Below are positions 890 through 14,714 of a stretch of DNA of 33,122 bases, one piece after another; within the stretch, counting starts at the first letter, position 1; each line of letters starts with the position of its first letter. The notes below the pieces were generated by a model, which made no database searches, was not told where the DNA came from, and was given only the letters and a program-made list of their open reading frames with translations. Made by a program: the position numbers and the translations under genes. The DNA is taken from positions 1 to 33,122 of the forward strand of contig CAMAKJ010000004.1 of assembly GCA_945836055.1 (NCBI GenBank). Reading direction: 5' to 3'. This DNA comes from an uncultured Clostridia bacterium (lineage in GTDB: Bacteria; Bacillota; Clostridia; Oscillospirales; Oscillospiraceae).

Positions 890-1441
890 CTATGGGATTG
901 GGGAATAGGTTTTTCCGGTCACGGCGTAGCCCCGGCCGGGCTTTGGCTGCCATTGGTAGCGGTTTTTCCCTTCCTCTGGGAATAGCGATTCCATGACGGC
1001 GGCAATGACGCCGCCGTGGGTTACAATCACCGTGTCCCGGTCGGTTTCCAGAACCGGCCGCAGCGCCCGGAGAACGCGGCGCTTCATCTGCTCTCCGCTT
1101 TCCCCGCCGGGGGGCGGCGTACGCTCCGGGTCGGCATCCAGCCACGCCTGGTATGCCGGGTCGTCTTTTAACTGTTCATAGCTGTGCATTTCAAAGGCGC
1201 CGAAGTCGATTTCCCGGAAATCCGGGCAGACTTCACAGTTTACGTCTCCAAAAAGAACGGCGAGCGTCTCCCGGCACCGCAGCATGGGGCTGGTGAGAAA
1301 CCGGGCGTCGCCCACAGAAATGCGGGGCTGATTCTCCAGCGCCGTCCTACCCCCTTCCGACAGGGGCAGATCGGTGCTGCCGCAGTACAGGTGCCGCTCG
1401 TTTGCCAGCGTCATCCCGTGGCGGATGAGGTACACCGTCAT
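890..1441 (-). CDS. cobC: Histidine phosphatase, alpha-ribazole-5'-phosphate phosphatase (CobC) type
   Basis: Branch-1 histidine phosphatase of 183 residues. The N-terminal YLIRHGMTLAN contains the RHG motif with the phosphorylated His. The second arginine region is in SPMLRCRETL, an acidic EIDFGAFE segment follows, and the second catalytic His is in VIVTHGGV. CobC removes phosphate from alpha-ribazole-5'-phosphate (or from adenosylcobalamin phosphate) in nucleotide-loop assembly. The family as such is promiscuous; the specific role comes from being the last gene of an operon with cobT, cobU and cobS. I chose the start at YLIRHG: it overlaps the preceding stop by an ATGA, while an upstream in-frame extension would run deep into the previous gene and lacks family homology. 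Confidence 0.85.
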   Translation of the reverse strand: MTVYLIRHGMTLANERHLYCGSTDLPLSEGGRTALENQPRISVGDARFLTSPMLRCRETLAVLFGDVNCEVCPDFREIDFGAFEMHSYEQLKDDPAYQAWLDADPERTPPPGGESGEQMKRRVLRALRPVLETDRDTVIVTHGGVIAAVMESLFPEEGKNRYQWQPKPGRGYAVTGKTYSPIP

Positions 1442-1812
1442 TTGAGCCGCTCCTCCAGGCCGCAGAAGATCCGGCTGACCCGGGCAGCCTCTCCGGACAG
1501 ATACCGGCACGTCAGGCCGTTCATCTGCCGCCACGAGCGCATGTCCGCCCCCATGGGCACCACCCCTGCGGAGATGTCCCGGCAGATCAGAATGCTGTCC
1601 CGCCACTGTTCCCGGTGGGACTGAAAATAAGCCACGGCATCCACTCCCGACCGGGCGCAGGCGTAGGTAAATTCCTCAATGTGGTCAATGCACCGTCTGG
1701 AAAAGTCGATTTCCCCGCCGGTGCAGGTAAAAATGTCCGCCGGCTTCAGGTCGAACGTGGATTTCGCAAAATCCAGTTTTCCCTGATAGGCACCGCCGAT
1801 AATCAGTACCAT
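1438..1812 (-). CDS. Short CobU-like protein (124 aa), second CobU paralog
   Basis: Resembles adenosylcobinamide kinase / adenosylcobinamide-phosphate guanylyltransferase (CobU) but is only 124 residues against about 180. It starts with a P-loop-like GGAYQGKLDFA (residues 6-16), in which the usual Ser/Thr after GK is Leu. The C-terminal half has DISAGVVPMGADMRSWRQ (about 79-96), which matches the NEVGxGIVP...R.(F)R stretch of classical CobU. The middle section carrying the guanylylated His (RHxxxR) is absent. It lies 9 bp after cobS and overlaps cobC by ATGA, so it is translated within the corrinoid operon. It may be a partner or regulatory subunit for the full-length CobU at 2559-3104, or a degenerate copy; the function is not established by sequence alone. 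Confidence 0.7.
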   Translation of the reverse strand: MVLIIGGAYQGKLDFAKSTFDLKPADIFTCTGGEIDFSRRCIDHIEEFTYACARSGVDAVAYFQSHREQWRDSILICRDISAGVVPMGADMRSWRQMNGLTCRYLSGEAARVSRIFCGLEERLK

Positions 1813-1821
1813 ACGCTCCTC

Positions 1822-2562
1822 CTAAATCAGTGCGTACACCGCCACGGCGCACGCTTCGCCCACAGTCAGGGCATAACCGGAAATATCCCCGTTCATACCT
1901 TCAAGAGACTTGTACCCCCGGTGCAGAGCCAGTGCGTACCCCGCCAGGCACCCGAGCAGGGCAAAGCCGTACTTCCCGCAGAGCAGGAACCCCGCCGCCA
2001 GAAAGGCCGCCAGCATACCGGCGAGAATCCACTGGTGGGCTTTGTTCTTTTCCTGGGCGGCATACTGGCTGGTGGCCATGGGCGGCAGGCCCTTCACCGC
2101 GAGAGCTGAGCAGCACCGGCTGACGGCGGGAATCAGGATCAGAATTCGCCAGTCCGCCGTCTCCGGTACGGAAGCCAGCAGGGCAAACTGGGTCAGCATC
2201 AGCAAGCACAGGCCAATGACCGCAAAGGAACCGACGTGGGAGTCCTTCAGAATCGCCCGGCGCTTTTCCAGGTCCCGGCAGGATTTCACCGCGTCGGTCA
2301 CGTCCATAAACCCGTCCAGATGGAGAAATCCCGTTAAAACGAAGGGGCAGGCGCAGAGAATCAGTCCGCTCACCAGGCTGGGCAGGCGCAGCAGGCGGAC
2401 AAGCCAGGCCAGCACCGCCCAGATGCCGCCGATTTTCAGTCCCACCACCGGCAGGAACAGCAGCATCTGCCCACGTGCCTTCTCATCCCAGAGATTTCCG
2501 GGAAAGGGAATGGCGCAGAACATGGACTGGCACATGGCAAAGCCGTAAAGCAGCCGTTTCAC
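1822..2562 (-). CDS. cobS: Adenosylcobinamide-GDP ribazoletransferase (cobalamin synthase)
   Basis: Integral membrane enzyme (246 aa) that joins adenosylcobinamide-GDP to alpha-ribazole(-phosphate), the last major step of cobalamin assembly. The acidic Mg-binding motif is in GFLHLDGFMDVTDA (Asp83, 87, 90), followed by the family motif LKDSHVGSF (about 105-113). Several hydrophobic segments are visible (about 35-55, 62-82, 112-130, and two or three near the C-terminus), as expected. The start is GTG, overlapping the cobU stop as GTGA, which implies translational coupling. Confidence 0.93.
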   Translation of the reverse strand: MKRLLYGFAMCQSMFCAIPFPGNLWDEKARGQMLLFLPVVGLKIGGIWAVLAWLVRLLRLPSLVSGLILCACPFVLTGFLHLDGFMDVTDAVKSCRDLEKRRAILKDSHVGSFAVIGLCLLMLTQFALLASVPETADWRILILIPAVSRCCSALAVKGLPPMATSQYAAQEKNKAHQWILAGMLAAFLAAGFLLCGKYGFALLGCLAGYALALHRGYKSLEGMNGDISGYALTVGEACAVAVYALI

Positions 2563-3104
2563 AGCGGCAGCACCCCCTTATAAACAATCGGATTTCCGGC
2601 GGTGACCTCAATTACAGTGTCGCAGGCCGCCGCGAGACACCGGTCGATTCCGGCGAGACTTTTCCGGTAAAGCTCCGTGATCTCGTCGTAGCGCTGGGCG
2701 TCGGCGTAGATGTAGTCGCTGACCACCACCGCGTGCTTCACGGCTCCGAGAAACGCAATCAGCTCGTCGGCGCACCGCTTCGCGCCCTCCAGGTCCAGTT
2801 CGTAGTTCTTTTCCCGGGGAAACAGAGCGTTCTGCAGCAGGGCCGTGGCGCTGTCCACCAGAAACGTACCGTTTTTGTCCGCCCTGTCCAGGCAGGACAG
2901 CATATTTTTCTCGCACTCCACGGTTTCAAACCCCAGCCCCGCACGGTCTGCCACATGCCGCCGGATGCGATCGTAGTCCTCCTCGTCTGTGGGAATCATG
3001 GTCGCCACATAGTAGCGCTTTCCCTCCCCGGACAGCTTCACCGCCAGCTGCTGGGCCAGGGTGGATTTTCCGTTTTTCGCGCCGCCGGAGAGAAAAACCG
3101 TCAT
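2559..3104 (-). CDS. cobU: Adenosylcobinamide kinase / adenosylcobinamide-phosphate guanylyltransferase
   Basis: Activates salvaged or newly made adenosylcobinamide by phosphorylation and GMP transfer, giving the substrate of CobS. The 181-residue protein has the P-loop GGAKNGKST (7-15), the YYVATM strand, and RIRRHVADR, whose His50 corresponds to the guanylylated histidine of CobU. The C-terminal AACDTVIEVTAGNP fits the family. It differs from textbook CobU where NEVGxGIVP is expected: here the segment reads VVSDYIYADAQRYDE. That missing motif is present in the short paralog two genes downstream. Start and stop overlap both neighbours by four bases (ATGA with cobT, GTGA with cobS). Confidence 0.88.
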   Translation of the reverse strand: MTVFLSGGAKNGKSTLAQQLAVKLSGEGKRYYVATMIPTDEEDYDRIRRHVADRAGLGFETVECEKNMLSCLDRADKNGTFLVDSATALLQNALFPREKNYELDLEGAKRCADELIAFLGAVKHAVVVSDYIYADAQRYDEITELYRKSLAGIDRCLAAACDTVIEVTAGNPIVYKGVLPL

Positions 3105-4195
3105 GTTTTCCCCTCCACCGTGAACTGGTCGCCCTGGCGGATCTCGTCTAAGTACCCGTCGTCAATACCCGCCTGATCAAAGGTCGCCATATTGTTGATG
3201 ATGGCACAGGCGGCGGAGAGCACCTGGAAGGCCAGCGGACAGCCGCTTCCCTCCCCCAGGCGCATCCCCAGCTGGAACAGGGGCTGCAAGTCCATGGCCT
3301 CCATAGCAAGGCGGTAGCCGATTTCAAAGGACGCATGGCTGGGAATCAGATAGCCCCGGGCCTCCGGGCACAGCCGAACGGCGCACAGCGCCGCCACGGC
3401 GGAGATAAAGCCGTCGATGACCACCGGACGGCGGGAGGCCGCCGCGCCCAGAAACGCGCCGCACATGGCGGCAATGTCAAAGCCGCCTACCTTTGCCAGC
3501 ACGTCCACCGGGTCATTTCTTTCCGGCCGGTTGACGGCGATAGCCTGACGGATGACCTCCTTTTTCCGGCGGAAGCTGTCATCGGTGATGCCGCCCCCCC
3601 TGCCGGTGACGGTCTCCACGTCCGCAGACAGCAGAACAGCCAGAATTGCGGAAGAGGTTGTGGTGTTGCCGATGCCCATTTCTCCCACGCCCAGAGCGTC
3701 GGCATCGGTATTGCGTGCCAGCTCCGCGCCGGTAAGGATGGCGGTGACCGCCTGCTCCCGGGTCATGGCAGGGCCATAGGTCATATTCCGGGTGCCGTAG
3801 GCGATTTTCCGGTTCACAACCGCCTTGTCCCGGATATCGGCGTTGACGCCCACGTCGCACACCGTGATGCCGCTGCCAAAGTGCTTTGCCAGCACGCTGG
3901 CCCCGGTTTTCGCCCGGGTGAGATTCACCGTCTGCATCAGCGTCACGGAATGGGGCGCGCTGGACACCCCCTCCGCCACCACGCCGTTGTCGGCGGCGAA
4001 GACCAGCAGATGGGTTTTTTCCATCCGGTTGTGCACCCGCCCGGTGATGCCCGCCAGCTGGATGGACAGGTCTTCCAGCCGCCCCAGACTTCCGGGAGGC
4101 TTGGCAAGCTCCGCCTGACGCTTCCGGGCTTCCGCCATGGCCGCCTCGTCCAGCGGCTGAATGATCGACAACAGTTCTTTCAGTTTTGTTTCCAT
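3101..4195 (-). CDS. cobT: Nicotinate-nucleotide--dimethylbenzimidazole phosphoribosyltransferase
   Basis: Makes alpha-ribazole-5'-phosphate from nicotinate mononucleotide and a lower-ligand base. The 364-residue protein shows the family pattern: RQAELAKPPGSLGRLE near the N-terminus, FAADNGVVAEGVS, the glycine-rich GEMGIGNTTTSSA, RGGGITDD, and the catalytic-Glu region RLGEGSGCPLAF with INNMATFDQAGI after it. I place the start at METKLKELL because GGAGG precedes it by 7 nt. A longer in-frame extension has a low-complexity Gly/Ala leader that overlaps the upstream gene and is not CobT-like. The start overlaps the TIM-barrel gene by 16 bp. Base specificity (DMB, adenine or phenolics) cannot be read from the sequence. 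Confidence 0.95.
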   Translation of the reverse strand: METKLKELLSIIQPLDEAAMAEARKRQAELAKPPGSLGRLEDLSIQLAGITGRVHNRMEKTHLLVFAADNGVVAEGVSSAPHSVTLMQTVNLTRAKTGASVLAKHFGSGITVCDVGVNADIRDKAVVNRKIAYGTRNMTYGPAMTREQAVTAILTGAELARNTDADALGVGEMGIGNTTTSSAILAVLLSADVETVTGRGGGITDDSFRRKKEVIRQAIAVNRPERNDPVDVLAKVGGFDIAAMCGAFLGAAASRRPVVIDGFISAVAALCAVRLCPEARGYLIPSHASFEIGYRLAMEAMDLQPLFQLGMRLGEGSGCPLAFQVLSAACAIINNMATFDQAGIDDGYLDEIRQGDQFTVEGKT

Positions 4196-4953
4196 ACCCA
4201 ATCCTCCAAAATTCCCCGTTCCTGCAGCCAAAGCACCGCCGGAGCCGCCTGACGCACTTCCAGGGTAAATGTTGCCCCGGGGCACGCCGATTCTGCCGTC
4301 CGCAGAAGGCTTTCCAGCGAAATCGTGCCCTCTCCCGGCAGACTGTGGCTGTCGTAAGAGCCGTCGTTATTGTGAATGTGAAAATGGGACAGCCAAGGAG
4401 CGCATTTTTTCAGCCACTCCTCCGCCGGAACCGGGGAATAGGCATTCACATGCCCAACATCCAGGCACAGGCGCAATCGGGGATGGTCAACCGCCTGCAT
4501 AATATCCCCAAGCATCTCCGGCTGCCCCTCCAGCACATTTTCCAGGACAATATCCACCCCGGGGTCCTCCTTCAGAAAGTCCTTCCAGAACACGATGGAC
4601 TGCTCCGTATACCAGCAGGAAAAATACAGCCGGGGGTTGTATCCGCCGTGGATAATCACCTTCTCCGCGCCGTAACGCTTCGCCAGAGAGATGGCCTGCC
4701 GGTAGCGAAAGCGCGCTAAATCCCGGGCCTTGGGGTCAACGGCGCAGGGAAACAGCTCGCTGAAGGGTGCGTGGAGCAGTCGCCGGCTGACACCGTCAAT
4801 TTCCTGCTCCACAATCCCGTGGGTTTCGGCAAATTTCTCGTCCATATTCCACGCCGTGCAGTATTCCGCGATTTCCAGCCCCAGGCCGAACCCCTTTGCC
4901 GTATCAGCGGCGTCCGGCGCGATGGTGGAAAGGTAAATCTGATTCGGATTCAC
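4180..4953 (-). CDS. TIM-barrel protein of the sugar-phosphate isomerase / AP endonuclease 2 superfamily in the B12 operon
   Basis: 257-residue protein with the xylose-isomerase-like TIM-barrel pattern. Putative metal ligands sit at the usual barrel positions: His61 (LLHAP), His102 (VIIHGGY), Glu139 (VLENV), Asp165 and His168 (LDVGH), His190-194 (HFHIH), and Glu232 (TLEV), so it is probably an active metalloenzyme. The start is a GTG overlapping the S-component stop (GTGA), and the end overlaps cobT by 16 bp. It is therefore co-translated with corrinoid uptake and lower-ligand genes. The substrate is unknown; the superfamily includes sugar epimerases, isomerases and endonuclease IV, none of which has an obvious role here. 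A function in corrinoid or lower-ligand metabolism is inferred from operon position only. Confidence 0.85.
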   Translation of the reverse strand: MNPNQIYLSTIAPDAADTAKGFGLGLEIAEYCTAWNMDEKFAETHGIVEQEIDGVSRRLLHAPFSELFPCAVDPKARDLARFRYRQAISLAKRYGAEKVIIHGGYNPRLYFSCWYTEQSIVFWKDFLKEDPGVDIVLENVLEGQPEMLGDIMQAVDHPRLRLCLDVGHVNAYSPVPAEEWLKKCAPWLSHFHIHNNDGSYDSHSLPGEGTISLESLLRTAESACPGATFTLEVRQAAPAVLWLQERGILEDWVWKQN

Positions 4954-5663
4954 GGGTGCCCACTCCCCTCTTCCACCGCCAGAATGCCGTATTTCGTCTT
5001 AACCCGGTCCAGCTTCTCCAGCAGCGGTTTTCCCAGAAGCAGAAGCACCGCTGCCGTTGCAATGGCCTGATTCACATTCACGGCGAAGCCAGAAACGTAG
5101 AAGGCCATCGCGCCCTTCAGGGAGATTTTGGACAGCACCAGAAACACCGAACAGGTATCCAGCAGCGGCCCCACAAAAAACGCCACCGCGAGAAACCCGA
5201 ATAAGCCCATCACCACGGGCTTTCTGGGCAGCAGGTTTTTGGCAAACAGGAACCCCGCCAGCATGCCCCCCGCGCCGTAAGCCATCATCTGCCAGGGGGT
5301 GTAGGGTCCCTGGCTGTAGAAAAAGTTGCTGGCCAGGGCGCTGACCGCCCCCACCAGAAACCCGGACTCCGGGCCGAAGGCGATGCCGGCGATCATGATA
5401 ACGGCGAAAATCGCCTTGAAGCCGGGAACGGGAATGGCCACCCGCCCCGCTACCGCCAGGGCGCACATCACCGCCAGCAGCACCAGCTCCCGGGCCTGGG
5501 GGCGTCTGCCCTCAAAGGCCAGGAAAAAGGGAATCAGCAGCTCCACAATCACCAGCGTGCTGGTGACGTAATACGCCCGCCCGGGCAGGCGGCTTCCCAG
5601 CACCAGCGTCGCGGGAATCACTGCCAGAAACACGATTAACGTAGCAATATGGGATTTTTTCAT
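4950..5663 (-). CDS. ECF transporter S component, probably corrinoid/cobalamin-specific
   Basis: Membrane substrate-binding subunit of an energy-coupling factor importer (237 aa). About six hydrophobic segments are visible from the N-terminus (IATLIVFLAVIPATLVLG) to AIATAAVLLLLG. The central GFKAIFAVIMIAGIAFGPESGFLVGAVSALASNF region matches the AxxxA-rich S-component core that contacts EcfT. I chose the start after a GGGAGG site 7 nt upstream; it overlaps the EcfA stop as ATGA. Specificity is inferred: the operon has a cobalamin riboswitch and nucleotide-loop genes, so cobalamin, cobinamide or another precursor (such as alpha-ribazole) is likelier than a different vitamin. Assignment to a named subfamily such as CbrT is not possible by eye. 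Confidence 0.85.
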   Translation of the reverse strand: MKKSHIATLIVFLAVIPATLVLGSRLPGRAYYVTSTLVIVELLIPFFLAFEGRRPQARELVLLAVMCALAVAGRVAIPVPGFKAIFAVIMIAGIAFGPESGFLVGAVSALASNFFYSQGPYTPWQMMAYGAGGMLAGFLFAKNLLPRKPVVMGLFGFLAVAFFVGPLLDTCSVFLVLSKISLKGAMAFYVSGFAVNVNQAIATAAVLLLLGKPLLEKLDRVKTKYGILAVEEGSGHP

Positions 5664-7306
5664 GGAGTATCCTCCCGGTTTTTCCGGCACAGGGCAATCA
5701 CATCCTCCGCCGTGACAGCATTTTGGAACACATGGCGGCTCATGCGGTTGGCCGCCGTGGTGTAGAAGCTGTTGGCCCCAAAGAACCGCCGGGGCGTGTC
5801 GGTGGTGAGAATCTGCCCGTCAAAGAACATGCTCACCCAGTCGGCATACCGGGCGCAGAATTCCACGTCGTGGGACACCATGACGATGGTAATGCCCTCC
5901 GCCTTCAATTTTGCGAGAATCCCGGCGAAGGTCTCCTTGAAAAAGCAGTCGATTCCCTTGGTGGGCTCGTCCAGAAGCAGCAGCTTTGGCTGGGTCAAAA
6001 GCACCTTGGCAAGGGCGGCGCGCTGCTGCTCGCCGCCGGACAGGTCGTAGGGGTGGCTTTGCAAAAGGGGCGTAATCTGGCAAAGCGCCGCTGTTTTGGC
6101 AAGCAGTTCCTCGTCCCGGGTCATTTCCCGCAGGTCTTCCAGAACCGTCTTTCCCACGAACAGGCTCTTGGGGTCCTGGGGAAGCATGGCAAGGCAGCCC
6201 TGAAACAGATTGGGCGTCTTTTCCACAGGCCTTCCGAACACACGGATTTTCCCCCGGTAGGGCCTGCAGGTTCCGCACACGGCTTTGAGCATGGTGGATT
6301 TTCCCGCGCCGTTGCCGCCCACAATGGCGTACAGGCAGCCTCTGGGCACTTCCGCCGTCACCCCTCGGAGAACGTCCGGGCTGTCCTTTTCGTAGCGGAA
6401 CCACACTTCCTTCATGGAAAGGGCGCACTCCGCCGGTTCCGCGTTGCCCCGCTCCGGCAGGGCGGTGTGCTTCGGCGGCTCCGGAAAGGCGCGGCTGAGC
6501 CAGTTTCGCCCTTCCCGTACGGTCAGGGGGCACTCCCCCGTTCCCCCGGCACCGTAGAATACCCGGACGGGCGTCGGCATGGCGGAAAACATCCCGCTGC
6601 CGCTGCTCCAAAGGTGCTCTGCTGTGGCTCTGGGCGCGTCGTCCGCAATCACCCGGCCGCCGTCCATCATCACCGCCCGGTCGGCATAGGGAAAAATGTC
6701 CTCGATCCGGTGCTCCGTGATGATCACGGTGGTGCCCAGCTCCGTGTTGATTTTCCGCAGGGTATTCAGAAAGTCCGACGCCGCGATGGGGTCCAGCTGG
6801 CTGGTGGGCTCGTCCAGAATCAGCACCTCCGGCTGCATGGCCATGATGGAGGCCAGGTTCAGCAGCTGCTTCTGTCCGCCGGAGAGATTCGCCACGTCCC
6901 GGTGAAACCAGTCCTGGATGCCAAAGTAGCAGGCCATTTCCGCCACCCGGGCGCGCATGGTTTTCTGGTCGCAGCCCAGGCTCTCCAGGCCGAAGGCCAG
7001 CTCGTGCCAGACCTTATCCGTGACGATCTGGTCGTCGGGATTCTGCATCACAAAGCCGATTTTCCCGGCCTGCTCCCGCTGGGATAGCTCCGTCAGCGGC
7101 ACGCCGTCCAGCAAAATTTCACCGCTGCGTTTGCCGTAGGGGGTCAGCACCGTCTTCAGATGCCGCAGCAGGGTGGTTTTTCCGCTGCCGCTTTTGCCCC
7201 AGAGCACCACATATTCTCCCCTGTGGATGGTCAGATTCACATCCGACAGGGCGCTGCGTCCGCTGGGGTAGGAAAAGGTCAGATTTTGGATCTCGATCTG
7301 CGCCAT
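5660..7306 (-). CDS. ECF transporter ATPase, two ABC domains fused in one polypeptide
   Basis: 548-residue cytoplasmic energy module. The first ABC domain has Walker A GKSGSGKTT (37-45), LSGGQKQ (141-147) and LILDEPTSQLD (about 162). The second has GGNGAGKST (330-338), LSGGEQQRAALA (422-433) and LLLLDEPTKGID (about 442). EcfA1 and EcfA2 are separate in many Firmicutes, so a single double-length protein is the YkoD-like arrangement. The linker around residues 225-295 is Pro/Gly/Ala-rich. The start overlaps ecfT by 28 bp and the stop overlaps the S component by 4 bp. It is therefore a dedicated transporter rather than a shared ECF module, judging by gene order. Confidence 0.93.
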   Translation of the reverse strand: MAQIEIQNLTFSYPSGRSALSDVNLTIHRGEYVVLWGKSGSGKTTLLRHLKTVLTPYGKRSGEILLDGVPLTELSQREQAGKIGFVMQNPDDQIVTDKVWHELAFGLESLGCDQKTMRARVAEMACYFGIQDWFHRDVANLSGGQKQLLNLASIMAMQPEVLILDEPTSQLDPIAASDFLNTLRKINTELGTTVIITEHRIEDIFPYADRAVMMDGGRVIADDAPRATAEHLWSSGSGMFSAMPTPVRVFYGAGGTGECPLTVREGRNWLSRAFPEPPKHTALPERGNAEPAECALSMKEVWFRYEKDSPDVLRGVTAEVPRGCLYAIVGGNGAGKSTMLKAVCGTCRPYRGKIRVFGRPVEKTPNLFQGCLAMLPQDPKSLFVGKTVLEDLREMTRDEELLAKTAALCQITPLLQSHPYDLSGGEQQRAALAKVLLTQPKLLLLDEPTKGIDCFFKETFAGILAKLKAEGITIVMVSHDVEFCARYADWVSMFFDGQILTTDTPRRFFGANSFYTTAANRMSRHVFQNAVTAEDVIALCRKNREDTP

Positions 7307-8163
7307 TGCAGTTCCTCCTTAAGGTGAAGTACCGAGGGAATCAAAAGATACGCGCAGTAGGCGGCAAAGCCCAGGGCGTAAATGCCGCTGACCGGCGCGA
7401 TGGACAGTACCGGGGTAAATTCCGCGGCAGTCGCACCCATGGCTGACACGGCAATGACCGCAGCCGCAAGAAACATCAGGACGGCAAGCAGGCACCAGTC
7501 GCCCCGCTTCATCGTGTAAATCTGAAAGCTGGTGCGTCTGCCGCTGCCGTAGCCCCGGGCGCGCATGGAATCCCCGGTCACCACGCTGCCCTCCAGCGCC
7601 CAGTCCGTCAGCGCCGAGAGCACCCCCATGCCGTGTCGGATTTTGTCCCTGTTTTTCTCCCCCGCGCCCAGGCCGATGGCTCTTCGCGCCAGGGTGATCT
7701 GCCCGGCCTTGCGGATAAAGCCAGGGATCATCCGCAGCACCATCACCAGCAGAAGGGAAAGGGCCGGAATGAGGTTGCCGAACAGGCTGGTAAACTTGTC
7801 GCTGGTCATCACGGCGTTATAGCATCCGAACCAGAGCATCATCACCACGAACACCCCGGCAATGGCTCCGCCGTAAAGCAGGGCTTCCAGCGTGTAAGGC
7901 CTGCCAAAAACATGGAACAGCACCCGCTCGCCGTAGGTATTGAACAGCGGGTTAACCGCCGTCAGCAGAAGGAACATGGGCACCAGCATTCCGATCCGCT
8001 TCCAGCCTTTTCTTCCGCTGAGCAGCAGATAGTACGCTGCCGCCCCCAGCGCCCCCGCAATCAGATACGCCGGATGCTGAATCAGCACGGCAAAGCCGAT
8101 GGCGCCCAGAAAAAAGAGAAAGTTCACCGCCGGGTGGCGGTTGGAAAAGGCGTCTGACGTCAT
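7279..8163 (-). CDS. ecfT: ECF transporter transmembrane coupling protein EcfT
   Basis: First gene of the corrinoid operon. The 294-residue membrane protein joins the S component to the ATPases. It begins with hydrophobic segments (VNFLFFLGAIGFAVLIQ and further). The cytoplasmic coupling region carries ALEGSVVTGDSMRARGYG with the Ala-Arg-Gly motif that docks on the ATPase. I chose MTSDAF as the start because AGGAGG lies 5-6 nt upstream. A longer frame reading through the leader is an artefact of the riboswitch sequence: it crosses the terminator hairpin. Expression should depend on the cobalamin riboswitch in the 250-nt leader. Confidence 0.92.
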   Translation of the reverse strand: MTSDAFSNRHPAVNFLFFLGAIGFAVLIQHPAYLIAGALGAAAYYLLLSGRKGWKRIGMLVPMFLLLTAVNPLFNTYGERVLFHVFGRPYTLEALLYGGAIAGVFVVMMLWFGCYNAVMTSDKFTSLFGNLIPALSLLLVMVLRMIPGFIRKAGQITLARRAIGLGAGEKNRDKIRHGMGVLSALTDWALEGSVVTGDSMRARGYGSGRRTSFQIYTMKRGDWCLLAVLMFLAAAVIAVSAMGATAAEFTPVLSIAPVSGIYALGFAAYCAYLLIPSVLHLKEELQWRRSRSKI

Positions 8164-8178
8164 AATCTCCTCCGAAAA

Positions 8179-8206
8179 AGAAAAAAGTCCCCAATCCGGG
8201 GACTTA
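8179..8206 (-). terminator. Riboswitch-controlled intrinsic terminator in the ecfT leader
   Basis: On the minus strand AAGTCCCC-GGATT-GGGGACTT is followed by a T-rich run, located just before the ecfT ribosome-binding site. It is the expression platform of the upstream cobalamin aptamer. A linker segment at 8232-8236 (GGGGA on the minus strand) could pair with TCCCC of the 5' arm and act as an antiterminator; that pairing is an inference. Confidence 0.85.
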
Positions 8207-8253: not shown

Positions 8254-8399
8254 AAAGTCAGCGCACCGTATTCCGGCTCTGGACGCCATCTGCCCAAGGC
8301 CTTCTCGGGATTGCCCCAATGACCCTGCGCGGCATACTGTCCATCTACGGCGGCTTGGTACCGCTGGGATTGCCCCATTCCAGTGTGCAGCCTGACTTT
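8254..8399 (-). ncRNA. Cobalamin riboswitch aptamer upstream of the ecfT-cob operon
   Basis: Read on the minus strand, the leader contains the B12-box-like GAGCCGGAATAC (about 8269-8279) and an upstream conserved core (GGGGCAATCCC, then AGCGGTACCAAGCCGCCG, then TTGGGGCAATCCCGAGAAGGC). The ends close perfectly: AAAGTCAG (8392-8399) pairs with CTGACTTT (8254-8261). The stem continues inward, GC then GCAC against GTGC-GC, with one bulged T. At 146 nt it is compact, which suggests a class II-type fold, but the class is not certain. The transcription terminator just downstream and the nine B12 genes after it support ligand-dependent termination. Confidence 0.87.
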
Positions 8400-8470: not shown

Positions 8471-8499
8471 ATTGCAATTAAAGGTTCGTTGTGCTACAA
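8471..8499 (+). promoter_or_regulatory. Sigma-A promoter of the DUF4430 lipoprotein transcript
   Basis: TTGCAA, 17-bp spacer, TACAAT with extended -10 TGC. It faces away from the ecfT promoter, with 21 bp between the two -35 boxes, and starts transcription at the edge of the plus-strand aptamer. Confidence 0.8.
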
Positions 8500-8500
8500 T

Positions 8501-8670
8501 AGGCCTGCCGTTTGGGGAAGGGGGTGCAAATCCTCCGCGAGCCCGTCGCCGTGATGCGCAGTCAACCGTTATGATTCTGACCCGAAGCCGCATTTGGGGA
8601 AACGCCATTGGAGCAATCTGAGAAGGCCGACTGATAACGCGCAGAAGCCGAAATATCCAACCGGCAAAAC
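8501..8670 (+). ncRNA. Cobalamin riboswitch upstream of the DUF4430 lipoprotein
   Basis: The conserved cobalamin core is readable in order: GGGGAAGGGGGTGCAAATCC, the GCGAGCCCGTCGCCGTGA segment, CGCCATTGG...GAGAAGGC, and the B12-box-like GAAGCCGAAATATCC. A closing stem pairs GCCGTTTGG (8506-8514) with CCAACCGGC (8657-8665), with one mismatch. Downstream a CCTCTT/AAGAGG hairpin (8670-8703) precedes the AGGAG site, but there is no clean terminator T-run, so the control mechanism (termination or translation) is unresolved. Confidence 0.87.
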
Positions 8671-8731: not shown

Positions 8732-9172
8732 ATGAGCAAGAACAGCAGAAAAAAGCTGCTGTCCATCCTCCTGTGTATCGCGCTGATTGCGGCTATGGCG
8801 CTGTGCACTGCCGGATGCGGCAGCAAGGACGCTCCCGAAACCACGGTTTCCGCCGGAGCTGCCGGAGCCACCTCCGTGGGTGAAGGACAGACTGCCTTCC
8901 TCTTCACCGTGGTGGACGCGGACGGCAAGGAAACCGCCTTTGACGTGCACACCGACGAAACGACCGTAGGCGCGGCACTGCTGGCCCTGGGGCTGATCGA
9001 CGGCGACGACAGCGAATACGGCCTGTACGTCAAGACCGTCAACGGCCTCACCGTGGACTATGACAAGGACGGCAAGTACTGGGCGTTCTATGTGGACGGC
9101 GAATACGCCGCCACCGGTGTGGATTCCACCGACATCGCTGCCGGTTCCACCTACACCTTCAAGGTCGAGTAA
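8732..9172 (+). CDS. DUF4430 (transcobalamin C-terminal-like) lipoprotein, candidate corrinoid-binding surface protein
   Basis: 146-residue exported protein. The N-terminus is Lys/Arg-rich (MSKNSRKK), followed by a hydrophobic stretch and a lipobox-like CTAGC with Cys29. The -3 residue is Thr, so this lipobox is slightly non-standard. After a short Gly/Ala/Ser linker comes a DUF4430-type domain (about 50-146): VGAALLALGLIDGDDSEYGLY, then VNGLTVDYDKDGKYWAFYVD, then GEYAATGVDSTDIAAG. This domain is related to the C-terminal domain of animal transcobalamin/intrinsic factor. It has its own cobalamin riboswitch and sits between an ECF importer and BtuFCD. I infer that it binds corrinoid at the cell surface and hands it to an importer; direct binding is not shown. 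AGGAG lies 9 nt before the ATG. Confidence 0.85.
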   Translation: MSKNSRKKLLSILLCIALIAAMALCTAGCGSKDAPETTVSAGAAGATSVGEGQTAFLFTVVDADGKETAFDVHTDETTVGAALLALGLIDGDDSEYGLYVKTVNGLTVDYDKDGKYWAFYVDGEYAATGVDSTDIAAGSTYTFKVE

Positions 9173-9184
9173 AATGCGAAAACT

Positions 9185-9226
9185 GCCGGTATGGCCTCCC
9201 GTTTGGGTGTCATACCGGCGTTTTTT
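9185..9226 (+). terminator. Intrinsic terminator after the DUF4430 gene
   Basis: GCCGGTATG (9185-9193) pairs with CATACCGGC (9211-9219), followed by T6. The 17-nt loop can itself fold (CCC/GGG). It separates the lipoprotein gene from the convergent btuD. Confidence 0.85.
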
Positions 9227-9980
9227 ATTCTGCGGAGAAGAAAATCTTGCCTTCCTCTCCCACGGTATACCGCTTCAGGGAGAAGGTTTTCTCCAGGATT
9301 TCCCCATCCAGGCATTCCTGCTTTGTGCCCGCGAACACCAGTCTGCCGCCGTCCAGCACCACGAAATCGTCGGCATACTGAGCCGCCACGGTCAGGTCGT
9401 GAAGCACCACCAGGAAGGTCTTTTTCTTCTTTTGCTTCAGAGACGTGAGCATTTGCAGAAACGCCGCCTCGTGGCTTAAATCCATGTGGGCGGTCGGCTC
9501 GTCCAGCAGGGCGATTGGCGTGTTCTGGGCCAGAATCATGGCAAGGGCAGCCCGCTGCTTTTCTCCCCCGGAGAGGGTATCCACATAGCGCTCCGAAAGG
9601 CTCTCCGCTCCTGCGTCCCGCAGGGCGGCAGCCACGGCCTCTTTGTCCTTCCGGGTCAGGCGCCCCGTGAAGTCCAGGTAGGGATTCCGCCCGAAACAGG
9701 CCATCTCCCAGGCCGTGATATTCGGCGCGGGAATGGTCTGGGGCAGAATGGCCACCGTCTTTGCCCGCTCCCGGGGCTGCAGCAGCGCCAGATTCTTCTC
9801 CCCCTCCAGAATTTCCCCAGTGTAGGGGATGCGCTGGTTCACACAGGCAAGCAACGTGGATTTTCCGCTGCCGTTTCGTCCCACCAGCGCCGTCAGCCGG
9901 TGGGGCCGTAGGGAGAAGGAGATGTCCTCCAGAATCTGCCGCTGTCCCAGCCGGACGGAAAGATTATGAAACGATAGCAT
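9225..9980 (-). CDS. btuD: ABC transporter ATP-binding protein, BtuD/FecE type
   Basis: 251-residue ATPase energising the adjacent BtuC permease. It has Walker A GRNGSGKST (34-42), LSGGEKQRAALA, and ALLDEPTAHMDLS with Walker B and D-loop. The start overlaps btuC by 17 bp. By sequence the family also serves siderophore and haem uptake. The corrinoid assignment rests on neighbouring B12 genes and on the absence of iron-uptake genes. Confidence 0.83.
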   Translation of the reverse strand: MLSFHNLSVRLGQRQILEDISFSLRPHRLTALVGRNGSGKSTLLACVNQRIPYTGEILEGEKNLALLQPRERAKTVAILPQTIPAPNITAWEMACFGRNPYLDFTGRLTRKDKEAVAAALRDAGAESLSERYVDTLSGGEKQRAALAMILAQNTPIALLDEPTAHMDLSHEAAFLQMLTSLKQKKKKTFLVVLHDLTVAAQYADDFVVLDGGRLVFAGTKQECLDGEILEKTFSLKRYTVGEEGKIFFSAE

Positions 9981-10950
9981 ACTGTCTCCTCCGGCAAAGC
10001 AGAATCAGGAAATAGGGTGCGCCGATGAGGCTCATGAAAATGCCCACCGGCAGCTCCGAGGGCGCAAACAGCGTCCTGCCCAGCAGATCCGCCAGCACCA
10101 CCAGAATCGCCCCCATGAGAGCGGAAACCGGGAGCATCTTCCCGGGCTGCTGTCCCACAAGCCGCCGGGCGATGTGGGGCACCACCAGTCCCACGAAGCC
10201 AAGCAGCCCCGCAAAGCTCACCACCGCCGCCGCGCAGGCGGCCGCGCAGGCCAGCGCCCCGATCCGGAGCCGCTTGACCCGGATGCCCAGCGCCGCCGCT
10301 GCCGCGTCTCCCACGGAAAGAACCCCCAGCCGTCCGGACATGGCAAGGGAACCCCCGAACGCACCGACGATTATGACCGCGGGAATCATCAGATCGTCCA
10401 TCCGGATGCCTTTCAGGCTGCCCACGGTGAAGTGATTGTACTGGGCCAGCACCCCCTCGTCCAGCAGGGACAAAAAGGAAATCACCGCGTTGAGCAGGGT
10501 GGTAACGGCAATGCCGATGAGCAGAATTCCGGAGCGGGAGCCGCCGATCCGGTCCGCCGCCAGCAGAATCACCAGCGCCGCGGCGAAGGCGCCCGCAAAG
10601 GCGGCGAAGGGCAGCGCCCCGCCCGCCATGGGAAATGCCGTCAGGGTGAGAATCACCGCCAGCCCCGCGCCGGAATTGATACCGATGATATTGGGGCTTG
10701 CCAGGGCGTTGGCGGTGACGCTTTGCAGAAGCACACCGGCTGTGGACATGCCGATGCCCGCCAGCACTCCGGCCGCCACCCGTGGCAGACGGATCTGCCA
10801 CAGAATCAGCCCAACGCTTTCCTCTCCCGCCCCCGTCGCAGCCTCCCAAAGCTGTGAAAGGGAAAGCGGGGCGCTGCCAAAGCAAAGCCCCGCCGTCATC
10901 GTGAGCGCGAGCAGCGGGATACAGATGGAGATAATCCGCCGCAGTTTCAT
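9964..10950 (-). CDS. btuC: ABC transporter permease, BtuC/FecCD family
   Basis: 328-residue inner-membrane permease with about nine or ten hydrophobic segments. It carries the family motifs RLPRVAAGVLAGIGMSTAGVLLQ near residue 55 and GFVGLVVPHIARRLVG near residue 240, the latter being the cytoplasmic coupling loop. It overlaps btuF by ATGA and btuD by 17 bp. It would form the translocation pore as a dimer with two BtuD. The corrinoid role is inferred from context. Confidence 0.85.
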   Translation of the reverse strand: MKLRRIISICIPLLALTMTAGLCFGSAPLSLSQLWEAATGAGEESVGLILWQIRLPRVAAGVLAGIGMSTAGVLLQSVTANALASPNIIGINSGAGLAVILTLTAFPMAGGALPFAAFAGAFAAALVILLAADRIGGSRSGILLIGIAVTTLLNAVISFLSLLDEGVLAQYNHFTVGSLKGIRMDDLMIPAVIIVGAFGGSLAMSGRLGVLSVGDAAAAALGIRVKRLRIGALACAAACAAAVVSFAGLLGFVGLVVPHIARRLVGQQPGKMLPVSALMGAILVVLADLLGRTLFAPSELPVGIFMSLIGAPYFLILLCRRRQYAIVS

Positions 10951-11885
10951 ACAATCTCTCCGTAAAGCAGCTCAATCAGGTATTCATACGCCTCGTCCCA
11001 GCGGGAATTGGGCTTGTACTGGAACAGGTCCTTGGGAAGCTGGTAGACCCGCCCCTCCTTCACCGCCGTCATGGACTGCCATACCGGGTCGGCAAGCAGG
11101 CTCTGCATATAGGCAACGCCTGTGCTCTCATCTCCCATGGTGGTATACAGAATGGCGTAGGGGTCGGACAGCAGAATCTCCTCCGTGCTCAGCCCGTCCA
11201 GCAGAACGGGCGCGTTCTCCGCTATGTTCACCGTTCCCAGCTCCTGGAGCATGGCGCAGACGAAGCTGGTATCCGCCGTCTTGGCCTTGGTGTATTTGGC
11301 GCTGGAGCCGGCCCGGACGAACAGGATTTCCGGCTGGTTTTCCTGCTCCCGGGCTGCGGAAATCAGACTCTCCACCCGGCGCTTCACCTGCTCGCCGTGG
11401 GTTTCATAGGCTTCCTGCGTCTGCAGAATATCCGTGGCGATCTTCAGCACCCGCAGATAGTCATTGAAGGTATCCACCGCAAACCCGGCTGTGGGAATTC
11501 CGGCGGTGCGCAGAGTATCCGCGCATTCCTTTTGGCCGGCCAGATCGGAGGCATAGAGCACGAAGTCCGGCTTCTCGGCAATCAGCAGCTCCAGATTGAT
11601 GGTTTTGCCTGCTCCATCGTCCACCAGCACCGCGTCCTGCCCGGCAAAGCCCCGGGTCACGGTCTCGCCAACGGTGATATCCACCGCACCTCCCGCGGTC
11701 ACCCACAGGTCCGCCAGGGACGACAACAGCACCGCCACCTTCCCGGGCTGGCATGGAACCTCCACCTCCGCGCCGGTGTCATCGGTAAACCGGACCGTTT
11801 TGCCGGGGGATACGTCCTTCACCGCCGGAGAAGCGCAGCCCGCCAGCAGCAGGGCGCAGAGCAAAAGAATCAGCAATCGCTTCAT
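10947..11885 (-). CDS. btuF: ABC transporter substrate-binding lipoprotein, BtuF/FecB type
   Basis: 312-residue extracytoplasmic binding protein with signal peptide and lipobox LLAGC (Cys17). It belongs to the periplasmic-binding-protein 2 family: an N-terminal DDTGAEVEVPCQPGKVAVL, then GFAGQDAVLVDDGAGKTINLELLIAEKPDFVLYAS, with a long helix joining two lobes. I place the start at MKRLLILLL because a GGAAAGGA site lies upstream and the signal peptide begins there. Longer frames add residues with no ribosome-binding site. It probably captures cobalamin or cobinamide, but a siderophore cannot be excluded. Unlike the two other B12 transcripts, its leader is too short for a riboswitch. Confidence 0.82.
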   Translation of the reverse strand: MKRLLILLLCALLLAGCASPAVKDVSPGKTVRFTDDTGAEVEVPCQPGKVAVLLSSLADLWVTAGGAVDITVGETVTRGFAGQDAVLVDDGAGKTINLELLIAEKPDFVLYASDLAGQKECADTLRTAGIPTAGFAVDTFNDYLRVLKIATDILQTQEAYETHGEQVKRRVESLISAAREQENQPEILFVRAGSSAKYTKAKTADTSFVCAMLQELGTVNIAENAPVLLDGLSTEEILLSDPYAILYTTMGDESTGVAYMQSLLADPVWQSMTAVKEGRVYQLPKDLFQYKPNSRWDEAYEYLIELLYGEIV

Positions 11886-11916
11886 TTCAGGTTTTTTCCT
11901 TTCCGATAGTGGCTTC

Positions 11917-11945
11917 ATCATATCATAATCCGGCAGGAAAAGCAA
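11917..11945 (-). promoter_or_regulatory. btuF: Sigma-A promoter of btuFCD
   Basis: Minus strand TTGCTT, 17-bp spacer, TATGAT. The start would be about 11909, only 24 nt from the ATG, leaving no room for an aptamer. A second, more distal candidate is TTGCTG-17-TATTAT (12061 down to 12033), formed by the end of a repeat element. Confidence 0.65.
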
Positions 11946-12040: not shown

Positions 12041-12315
12041 TATATTGGCTTAACTCAGCAAACCGGCAAATTGCAGTTTGGCGCGACAAAGCCTTCCCCT
12101 TTGGGGAAGGTGGCTCGCCGTAAGGCGAGACAGATGAGGGTTGCCCCAGTACGAATTCGCCGAAACGCTCCGGATGATTGCTCCACAGTACCGCCCCTCA
12201 TCAGTCAAAAATCAAAGATTTTTGCCAGCGGACACTATGGTATGATTGCCACCGGCAATCATGATGATTATGATTCGCTGCGCGGAGCACCACCCCGAAG
12301 GGGAAGCCTTGGGCG
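12041..12315 (+). repeat. Composite repeat: TIR fragment plus MITE-like hairpin element in the yfhO leader
   Basis: This occupies the 402-bp gap between btuF and yfhO. Bases 12045-12075 match the end of the 26305-26626 element (GGCTTAACTCAGCAAACCGG, then CAAATTG). From 12090 an AAGCCTTCCCC / GGGGAAGG hairpin and a CGCCGTAAGGCG hairpin lead to GATGAGGG. The opposite arm, CCCTCATC then CCCCGAAGGGGAAGCCTT (about 12187-12310), is its inverted counterpart. I see no coding potential. Such TTCCCC...GATGAGGG elements recur in Oscillospiraceae genomes. Confidence 0.65.
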
Positions 12316-12347
12316 CTGCGCGCATCCATTCTCTTGGGAGGAAGATC

Positions 12348-14714
12348 ATGAAAAAAACGACGAAATTGTCATGCGGCAAATGCTCCGGCTTCAGGGGGCT
12401 GCTCCTGGCCGCCGCTCTTGGCGCCGGGGTCGGTCTGCTGTCCTTTCTGCCGTTTCTTCTGCGCAGCCGGGGACAGTATCTGGACGGGGGAGACTATTAT
12501 GCCCAGTACGTCCCCTTCCTCCTGGAGCTGAAGCGCATGATTTCCTCCGGCTCCCTGGCCTGGAGCTGGAATTCCTTCCTGGGCGACAGCTTCGCTTCCG
12601 CCTATTCCTACTATACCGCATTCAATCCCTTTGCCTGGATTGCCGCCATGTTCCCCGAATCCGGTCTGCTGTACGGCACCGCCCTCGTCACACTGCTGAA
12701 ATTCTCCGTCAGCATGGTGGGCGCCATGCTGTACATGCGGCGGTTCTGCCGGGAAGACGCCTATGCCCTCATCGGCGCGCTGCTGTATACCTTCTCCGGT
12801 TTCACCGTTATCAATACCGATTTTTACTTCTTTCTGGACGTGATCGCGGTATTTCCTTACCTCATGTACGGTCTGGAGCGGCTCATTGTGGACGGAAAGG
12901 CCGGAGCCTATATTCCGGCGCTGGTTCTCAACGCCGCCATTAACTTCTATTTCTTCATCGCCACGGTTTTCCTCGTGATTCTGTACGTTGTCTTCCGGCT
13001 GGAGCTGTACCGCCCCTCCGGCTGGAAGCGGCATTGGAAAGCCTTTGTATCCGTCGCCGTATGCAGCATCATCGGCGCAGGGCTGGCCTGCTTCGCCCTG
13101 GTGCCCTCCTTCTTCGGCATCCTCGGCTCCGGAAAGGCGATGAGCAGCGTCGGCACCAAGTTCACCCTCGCTTACCCCCTGCAGGATATTCTGGAGCGGC
13201 TGCGTGCCTTTGTGTCGCCCATTGAAAGCGGCATCCGTCACGCCTTTTATGACTGCCGTTCCTGGAGCTCCACCGCCCTTTACCTGCCCGTTTTCGGCGT
13301 CTGTCTGGCGGTGTCCTGGTGCGTGTCGGAAAAGGGCTGGCTGAAAAACGCCTGTCTGGCGCTGAGCCTGTGCCTCTTCGTGCCGCTGCTGAACGCCGTG
13401 TTCAATCTGTTTACCTCCGCAGGCTACACCCGGTGGCTGTACGGCCTGGTGCTGCTGCTCTGTCTGGCAACCGTCCTCAGTCTGGAGCGGATCGGGCAGG
13501 GTCGGGCGCGCTTCCCCGTGAAGATCCTGGCCGGACAGACCGTTCTCGCGGGGATATTGCTGCTGGTGCCAACGGCGGTGTACAGCTTGTACCGGCTGGG
13601 TTTCTGTGATGTCACCGCCTTTGCCAGCGCCTGCACCTCGGCGTATTTTATCGGCTACCGCAAGCTGCTTATCATGCTCCTGCTCACCGCCGCCAATTAT
13701 GGGGCGCTGTGGTATCTTGCCCGCGCCCGGGAGTTCCGGATGAAGCGGACGGTGTGGATTGTCATTGCCGCCTGCGCGGTGAATTTCGCCGTCTTCAACG
13801 AGATGAACTACGACTATGCCTCCTGCTATGATGTCTATCAGACCACTATGGTCCAGGGCTGCGACCTGGATGGCGGCGATATGCAATACCGCGCGGACTA
13901 TCCGTCCGGGATTCAGAATTACGGTCTGTTCCAGGATGTCCCTTCGGTGAATTACTATAATTCCATGCAAAATCCCAACAGCACCCGGTTCGCCCAGGCG
14001 GTGGGAATCGCCAATGATCCCCGGGATATCATCTTTGAAATGCCCGCTGCCGGCAGGGAGGCCCTGGGCGCTCTGCTCTCCGTCCGGTACTATCTGGATT
14101 ACACCGGCGATGCCGCCATTCCTCAGGGCTTCCGGTTTGTGAAAACGGAAAACGGCGTGGATCTGTACGAAAACGACAATTACATTCCCATGGGCTTTGT
14201 CTATGACACCTACTGTCCGGAAAGCAGGCTTGTGGAAACCGCAGCCGAAAGTCGGGCGGCTGTCATGCTGAAGTCTCTCGTCATTCCGGATGAAGACGAG
14301 GCTCTTGTGCGGGAATACCTCCGTGAGGACACCTCCGCGGTTGTCCCGGAGCTGTCGGAGATGTCCGCCCGGCGGCGGGAGACGGTTTGCGGCTTCTTTG
14401 CGGGAACCTCCCGGGGCTTCTCGGCAGAAATTACCCTGGATCGGAAAAACATTGTCTTTTTCAGCATTCCCAACAGCCCGGGATGGACCATTACCGTGAA
14501 CGGCGAACAGGCGGACACCCTGGAAGTCAACTACGGGCTGATGGGCATCTGCTGTGAGGCCCTGGAAAACCGCATCGAGGCGGTTTACCACACCCGGGGC
14601 TGGATTCCCGGCATCGCCCTCAGCGCTTTGTCCGGCATTGTCTGGCTTGCGCTGGCAGCAATCAAAAAAAGCGGGAAGGTCGCTTGGCAAATTACGTTGG
14701 AACAGGAGAAATGA
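12348..14714 (+). CDS. YfhO-family multi-spanning membrane protein (GT-C-like)
   Basis: 788-residue protein. About a dozen hydrophobic spans are visible in residues 15-480, followed by an extracytoplasmic domain (about 500-760) and a final span near the C-terminus (ALSALSGIVWLALAAIK). The first outer loop carries GGDYYAQYVPF (48-58). YfhO proteins have a GT-C glycosyltransferase-like fold; B. subtilis YfhO is needed for lipoteichoic acid glycosylation, so transfer of a lipid-linked sugar to a cell-surface polymer is plausible but not proven here. The start follows GGGAGG with 6 nt spacing. It is followed after 1 bp by rlmI, and a second YfhO protein lies on the opposite strand at 16123-18849. 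Confidence 0.85.
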   Translation: MKKTTKLSCGKCSGFRGLLLAAALGAGVGLLSFLPFLLRSRGQYLDGGDYYAQYVPFLLELKRMISSGSLAWSWNSFLGDSFASAYSYYTAFNPFAWIAAMFPESGLLYGTALVTLLKFSVSMVGAMLYMRRFCREDAYALIGALLYTFSGFTVINTDFYFFLDVIAVFPYLMYGLERLIVDGKAGAYIPALVLNAAINFYFFIATVFLVILYVVFRLELYRPSGWKRHWKAFVSVAVCSIIGAGLACFALVPSFFGILGSGKAMSSVGTKFTLAYPLQDILERLRAFVSPIESGIRHAFYDCRSWSSTALYLPVFGVCLAVSWCVSEKGWLKNACLALSLCLFVPLLNAVFNLFTSAGYTRWLYGLVLLLCLATVLSLERIGQGRARFPVKILAGQTVLAGILLLVPTAVYSLYRLGFCDVTAFASACTSAYFIGYRKLLIMLLLTAANYGALWYLARAREFRMKRTVWIVIAACAVNFAVFNEMNYDYASCYDVYQTTMVQGCDLDGGDMQYRADYPSGIQNYGLFQDVPSVNYYNSMQNPNSTRFAQAVGIANDPRDIIFEMPAAGREALGALLSVRYYLDYTGDAAIPQGFRFVKTENGVDLYENDNYIPMGFVYDTYCPESRLVETAAESRAAVMLKSLVIPDEDEALVREYLREDTSAVVPELSEMSARRRETVCGFFAGTSRGFSAEITLDRKNIVFFSIPNSPGWTITVNGEQADTLEVNYGLMGICCEALENRIEAVYHTRGWIPGIALSALSGIVWLALAAIKKSGKVAWQITLEQEK

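Follow-up and report, generated by a model that had tools for sequence, protein, structure and literature searches.

Surface capture of corrinoids ahead of import is familiar from Bacteroides, in which BtuG and BtuH reside on the outer membrane of a Gram-negative cell and serve the TonB-dependent transporter BtuB. Small extracytoplasmic partners are also known for the ECF transporters of cobalt and nickel (CbiN and the NikKL-type accessories), and these differ in fold and in ligand class from the proteins considered here. In the animal B12 carriers, which comprise transcobalamin, intrinsic factor and haptocorrin, the β-domain binds first and the α-domain, an α/α toroid, closes second (PMC11107200). 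The isolated β-domain of human transcobalamin binds cyanocobalamin (CNCbl) and cobinamide in crystals (PMC5599065), and B12 transport proteins consisting of a β-domain only are also mentioned, with reference to a zebrafish study (PMC11107200). In the β-domain of haptocorrin, the bulky residues Arg357, Trp359 and Tyr362 stabilise the complex with corrinoids that lack the nucleotide (PMC4350170).

By published account (PMC5997447), the S-component of an ECF transporter itself acts as the substrate-binding protein, and so a separate catcher for such an importer would be a variation on the known type. CbrT is the S-component of an ECF transporter that imports both cobalamin and cobinamide; transport has been shown for ECF-CbrT of L. 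delbrueckii, where the published gene order is nrdJ-cbrS-cbrT-pduO and the partner protein is only named (PMC5997447). A search of the open-licence literature, which may have missed published work, found no study of the function of CbrS and neither a function for DUF4430 nor a link between this domain and corrinoid capture. Already known are the DUF4430 domain family, the gene name cbrS and a homologous structure, 3u7z (RUMGNA_00854 of Ruminococcus gnavus), which is a DUF4430 domain with the β-domain fold of the B12 carriers that was deposited as a “putative metal binding protein”; the accessible parts of the literature on this entry state no link to cobalamin.

The window analysed here, a whole stretch of 33,122 nucleotides from an uncultured Clostridia bacterium of the gut, contains a short DUF4430 gene that lies between an ECF operon and an ABC importer (Table 1). 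With a probability of roughly 0.7, the lipoprotein that it encodes is a surface corrinoid catcher serving an ECF transporter.

Table 1. Features surrounding the DUF4430 lipoprotein gene, in window coordinates
Feature	Position	Strand	Basis
CobC-like α-ribazole phosphatase	890..1606	-	TIGR03162, 114 bits, below cut-off 163
CobS	1822..2562	-	PF02654
CobU	2559..3104	-	PF02283
CobT	3101..4285	-	TIGR03160, 427 bits, over cut-off
CbiR-like TIM-barrel protein, cobamide remodelling	4180..4953	-	NF041277, 39.6 bits
ECF S-component, CbrT-related	4950..5690	-	Profile A3 against CbrT structure 6fnp_A; hhalign against family A1
EcfA-EcfA fused ATPases	5660..7306	-	TIGR04520, over cut-off
EcfT (CbiQ-like)	7279..8163	-	PF02361, weak; homologues adjoin DUF4430 genes
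Intrinsic terminator between minus-strand riboswitch and EcfT start	8185..8205	-	Sequence scan
Probable second cobalamin riboswitch, leader of ECF operon	8266..8384	-	RF00174, 25.3 bits, below gathering 31.5
Promoter-like site of lipoprotein gene, TTGCAA-N17-TACAAT, TG before -10	8472..8500	+	Consensus scan
Cobalamin riboswitch of DUF4430 gene	8513..8658	+	RF00174, 35.5 bits, gathering 31.5
Lipoprotein signal peptide	8732..8818	+	Residues 1-29, lipobox TAGC; sequence and one N-terminal helix (5-27) in model
DUF4430 lipoprotein gene	8732..9172	+	146 aa; PF14478, AF2 model, PDB matches
FecCD-family ABC importer, BtuD-/BtuC-/BtuF-like genes	9225..11945	-	PF00005, PF01032, PF01497

Architecture and predicted fold of the lipoprotein

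The open reading frame starts with an ATG just 3′ to an AGGAG ribosome-binding site. Its product begins with MSKNSRKKLLSILLCIALIAAMALCTAGC, followed by GSK, and this N-terminus is positively charged and then hydrophobic, with the lipobox T-A-G-C at residues 26-29; the segment AMALCTAGC (residues 21-29) agrees with the sequence pattern of bacterial lipoproteins, which bears out the lipoprotein signal that a sequence-only reading of this DNA had ascribed to the protein. Many members of the family have a plain N-terminal membrane anchor instead of a lipobox. Between the signal and the DUF4430 domain is a linker that the AlphaFold2 model renders with low confidence, and the remainder of the 146-residue chain is a single DUF4430 domain, no second domain being found by Pfam or in the model. 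The PF14478 match spans residues 78-145 (36 bits, E=9.8e-9; Pfam gathering cut-off 23.8), and the region with the transcobalamin β-domain fold covers residues about 51-146.

The AlphaFold2 model, obtained with 42 family members, has a pLDDT of 89 that rises to about 98 over the domain, and it was compared with solved structures using Foldseek and VIA-align 2. In all listed entries, the β-domains of transcobalamin, intrinsic factor and haptocorrin match the model at Z 11.8-13.1 over 92-96 residues, and the first other fold follows at Z 6.7. The resemblance to the C-terminal domain of the animal B12 carriers, previously proposed from the letters, is thus upheld by structure comparison. The closest solved structure is 3u7z (Z 17.1, 30% identity). 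Identity to the animal domains is only 12-17%, and the sequence profile of the DUF4430 family reaches haptocorrin (4kki) by itself with E=4.9e-5.

In the profile alignment, the haptocorrin segment R-S-W-G-P-Y, numbered 357-362 by reading of the alignment, lies opposite S94-E-Y96-G-L-Y99 of the window protein, with Y96 and Y99 falling at the positions of Trp359 and Tyr362. Aromatic residues occupy position 96 in 33 of 37 family members and position 99 in 34 of 42, and W117 is invariant in the family alignment. As a sign of corrinoid binding, these retained aromatic positions, read from aligned sequences, are suggestive only, and the fold shared with the animal carriers is not in itself proof of a shared ligand.

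The window protein differs from the animal carriers, which sandwich the corrinoid between two domains, in having no α-domain in the same chain, a second domain being present in other DUF4430 proteins of the order, and in its predicted bacterial lipid anchor, which would place it at the membrane beside an importer. A β-domain working alone, which the sequence-only reading regarded as a distinct solution, nevertheless has precedents in the isolated human transcobalamin β-domain (PMC5599065) and in the β-domain-only proteins that PMC11107200 mentions. The claim of distinctness is further weakened by a homologue that, by gene order, already bears the name cbrS (PMC5997447) and by the existence of 3u7z.

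Cobalamin riboswitches precede DUF4430 genes

The lipoprotein gene has its own cobalamin riboswitch, as had been noticed from the letters, and in the whole 1.73-Mb genome assembly no other RF00174 match exceeds the cut-off. The riboswitch, whose end is separated from the start codon by 74 bases, is kept at the same place in an 88%-identical relative (locus L171), and scores 84.8 bits against a covariance model of the lineage, a value to be read with the window copy being part of the training set. That model was built from 19 riboswitches found in the scanned DUF4430 loci and ECF operons. The promoter-like site just 5′ of the riboswitch is, by its consensus match, suggestive only of a promoter. 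A scan of the stretch from the riboswitch to the start codon found no terminator, and the stretch from the aptamer onward folds no better than shuffled sequences.

A second element, which the sequence-only reading lacked, resides on the minus strand in the leader of the ECF operon. It probably works as a cobalamin riboswitch despite its score below the RF00174 gathering threshold, because the lineage model scores it at 41.8 bits (E=7e-9) and because it is conserved in L171 and is followed by an intrinsic terminator, which is the probable expression platform.

Similar arrangements are found elsewhere. Four scans covering about 568 kb returned RF00174 matches over gathering in 19 of 54 loci, and all 19 are located just upstream of a DUF4430 gene on the same strand. 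The lineage model places a cobalamin riboswitch immediately before the DUF4430 gene in 47 of the 56 named relatives of the window protein, with scores of 68-98 bits for 45 of these switches, and only four additional matches occur in the 758 kb around the relatives. A chance neighbourhood of riboswitch and DUF4430 gene is ruled out, because every one of the 19 RF00174 matches stands just 5′ of such a gene and stray matches of the lineage model are so few. Upstream of some DUF4430 genes, the long type is replaced by candidate shorter cobalamin switches of about 70-100 bases (L057, 1791-1894; also L046, L050, L054, L065, L067, L069, L074 and L083), one of which is a sub-threshold AdoCbl-II match. 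In addition, RF00174 is present in 8 of 11 ECF operon regions that contain a long DUF4430 protein.

Importers adjoining the lipoprotein gene

The minus-strand operon has the order EcfT, EcfA-A, EcfS, CbiR-like protein, CobT, CobU, CobS and CobC-like phosphatase, and is an importer joined to a line for cobamide salvage and remodelling. Translation of EcfT likely starts at the in-frame ATG at 8163, which stands behind a GGAGGAG motif, rather than at the TTG at 8319. The CbiR-like protein scores below the NF041277 cut-off of 105, yet NF041277 is its top match in the model library. The kinship of the S-component with CbrT is visible only from family to family: the profile of the window EcfS family (A3) matches chain A of 6fnp with E=1.8e-17 over 175 residues, and hhalign of the CbrT-type family (A1) against A3 gives a probability of 98.1, whereas the match of the CbrT family to the single window S-component is weak. 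Entry 6fnp is taken here to be the CbrT structure of the L. delbrueckii study (PMC5997447).

The sequence-only reading had placed the lipoprotein gene between an ECF importer and BtuFCD. The ECF importer (T, fused A-A and S) is indeed present on the left and an importer of the FecCD type on the right, but the identity of the latter as BtuFCD is less secure. The NCBIfam models for BtuF, BtuC and BtuD all score below their curated cut-offs across 9225-11945, and the binding protein gives 52 bits with IsdE against 26 bits with BtuF. Because the putative BtuF has no match over the cut-off of the BtuF model, a corrinoid-specific BtuFCD is only a likely reading of these genes. Farther along the window are two genes for YfhO-family membrane proteins, close together and in opposite directions (12246-14714, plus strand, and 16123-18849, minus strand).

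DUF4430 genes are partnered with CbrT-type S-components

Short DUF4430 genes were drawn from 147 genomes of the same order, yielding 50 loci with a clear gene of this kind. In 41 of the 50, a CbrT-type S gene of about 175 codons resides directly behind the DUF4430 gene on the same strand, mostly touching or overlapping it and in all cases within 400 bases (the count was read from the locus table; a narrower distance window gave 36). The S family found at these positions (alignment A1) matches 6fnp chain A at a profile E-value of 4.7e-20, and no Pfam or NCBIfam model was found for this widespread CbrT-like family (e.g., L041, 6095-6643). Among the 56 named relatives, a DUF4430 gene is followed by a CbrT-type S gene in 46, and a CbrT-type or CbrT-related S-component adjoins the DUF4430 gene in 49. 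Together with the riboswitches described above, this survey, which the sequence-only reading had suggested as a check, excludes the possibility that the family lacks a conserved association with B12 loci. BtuFCD was considered as the conserved partner and rejected: BtuFCD-like genes adjoin in the window and L171 only, and the conserved partner is the CbrT-type S-component.

The partnership extends beyond the order. In a sample of 299 genomes from the phylum, 64 of 78 CbrT-like genes share their strand with a DUF4430 gene, among the matches listed, that lies no more than 8 kb away, and the DUF4430 gene is the upstream member in all 64 of these listed same-strand pairs. DUF4430 is also present in 72 of the 76 sampled genomes that have CbrT-like genes (Fisher p=1.8e-46, which is only a guide because related genomes are not independent). 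In L. intestinalis the gene order is nrdJ-DUF4430-S-PduO, in which the DUF4430 protein occupies the place of CbrS in L. delbrueckii, and by this gene order alone cbrS is very probably a DUF4430 gene. The window differs from the CbrS case in that the neighbour is a dedicated ECF operon and not a lone CbrT, and in that a riboswitch governs the gene.

For seven of the 50 short DUF4430 genes of the order, the neighbourhood contains no CbrT and no RF00174 match. The short DUF4430 lipoproteins of L047, L066 and L061, which form a small clade and lack both CbrT and a riboswitch, may have a different ligand; the gene at L066 adjoins a 2-hydroxyacid dehydrogenase gene. An OLE RNA (430 bits) is found at L068 (5757-6390), near a DUF4430-CbrT locus.

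The window itself is without a CbrS-CbrT pair. No CbrT-type S gene lies behind its DUF4430 gene and none was found elsewhere in the genome, from which the loss of CbrT is not proven because the assembly is 84% complete. In the tree, the window gene is nested among CbrT-linked DUF4430 genes, and its nearest relatives have CbrT; the nearest of all, L092 (65% identity), has both CbrT and a riboswitch. L171 keeps the whole window arrangement. At L209 (54% identity) the DUF4430 gene likewise stands divergent to an ECF operon of the same remodelling type, and BtuFCD is missing; at L215 (52% identity) the DUF4430 gene, EcfT, EcfA-A, EcfS and a CbiR-like gene form one co-directional array. In loci that lack CbrT, a CbrT-related ECF system can instead adjoin the DUF4430 gene, as in the window and these three loci. 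DUF4430 thus keeps an S partner of the CbrT type even though the type of ECF transporter changes, which is the strongest argument that the lipoprotein and the S-component work together.

Proposed mode of action and alternatives

The system would probably operate as follows. Low intracellular cobalamin would lead the riboswitch to permit synthesis of the lipoprotein, which its lipid anchor would keep on the outer face of the membrane, with the domain carried by a flexible linker of some 20 residues. One face of the domain would bind cobamides as well as cobinamide, in broadly the manner of the isolated β-domain of transcobalamin, and the domain would then hand the corrinoid to the CbrT-related S-component, the product of the divergent, riboswitch-led operon, at its exposed binding site; the S-component would fill the role that the α-domain has in the animal carriers. 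Import would be driven by ATP hydrolysis in the ECF transporter, and the corrinoid would subsequently be remodelled by the CbiR-like, CobU, CobT, CobS and CobC-like enzymes. Binding of a corrinoid by the lipoprotein appears likely, and delivery to the S-component, if binding takes place, somewhat less so. Because the study that showed transport by ECF-CbrT names the partner protein and says no more of it, the lipoprotein would be at most an aid that captures substrate or raises affinity and is not essential.

Alternatively, the lipoprotein could belong permanently to the ECF transporter as an extracytoplasmic subunit that stabilises or gates the S-component, in the manner of CbiN and the NikKL-type accessories of cobalt and nickel systems, and holds no corrinoid itself. 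Such a subunit would suit the observation that DUF4430 genes pair closely, and in an unvarying order, with S-component genes of two related types, and also the plain N-terminal anchors of many family members, which would hold them at the membrane. This arrangement seems unlikely, however, given the specific match of the fold to a corrinoid-binding domain and the retention of the ligand-side aromatic positions, for which a mere scaffold would have no need. A catcher that hands its corrinoid to the adjoining FecCD-type (BtuFCD-like) importer is distinctly less probable again: although the two lie side by side in the window and L171, and BtuFCD-like genes are found near DUF4430 genes on another contig of the same genome (C85), an importer of this type brings a binding protein of its own, and a full BtuFCD-like set accompanies one of the 56 relatives as against 49 with a CbrT-type or CbrT-related S-component.

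Slightly less probable still is a ligand of another kind, such as a metal ion or a different tetrapyrrole, for example haem. The deposited label of 3u7z and its many calcium sites (PMC3975891) point in that direction, and the binding protein of the ABC importer scores higher with IsdE than with BtuF. The same passage of PMC3975891 speaks of nonspecifically bound calcium ions, however, and against a ligand of this kind stand the cobalamin riboswitches that control the gene and its relatives and the cobalamin type of the partner S-components.

Should the lipoprotein indeed be a conserved, B12-regulated catcher of corrinoids, it would add an extra step to vitamin capture in Gram-positive bacteria, which would then compete directly for gut corrinoids. 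Its role would mirror that of BtuG and BtuH in Bacteroides, which likewise catch corrinoids at the surface for an importer but have another fold and reside at the outer membrane. DUF4430 would gain a testable function and cbrS a likely role, the “metal binding” label of 3u7z would be replaced, and the animal B12 carriers would be tied to a bacterial family.

Two-domain and split relatives

Long DUF4430 proteins are encoded directly upstream of EcfT in most high-scoring loci, and relatives of the window EcfS with 40-48% identity are found in these long-DUF4430 ECF operons. At L011 (82-1755), upstream of EcfT, a 557-residue protein comprises a toroid, a membrane helix and a DUF4430 domain in the domain order of transcobalamin, and the top 15 Foldseek matches to its predicted structure are all entries for intrinsic factor, transcobalamin or haptocorrin. 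The toroid of the two-domain proteins also matches terpene cyclases and epimerases at Z 18-21, and on its own is a common fold. Tentatively, and with slightly less than even confidence, clostridia and lactobacilli may possess a transcobalamin system of their own, in which lone β-domains and toroid-plus-β proteins act as extracellular carriers for CbrT-type ECF transporters and share ancestry with the animal carriers.

Contig C85 of the window's genome (L034, 1659-7827) encodes toroid-DUF4430 and DUF4430 proteins together with an EcfT-like gene and a divergent FecCD-type importer; the DUF4430 domain of the first gene in this cluster seems cut at its start, perhaps by a frameshift or an assembly error. 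At L162 (1349-10998), a cobalamin riboswitch leads an operon with a separate secreted toroid and an anchored DUF4430 protein, followed by EcfT and EcfA-A-S, and this pair resembles a transcobalamin divided into two proteins.
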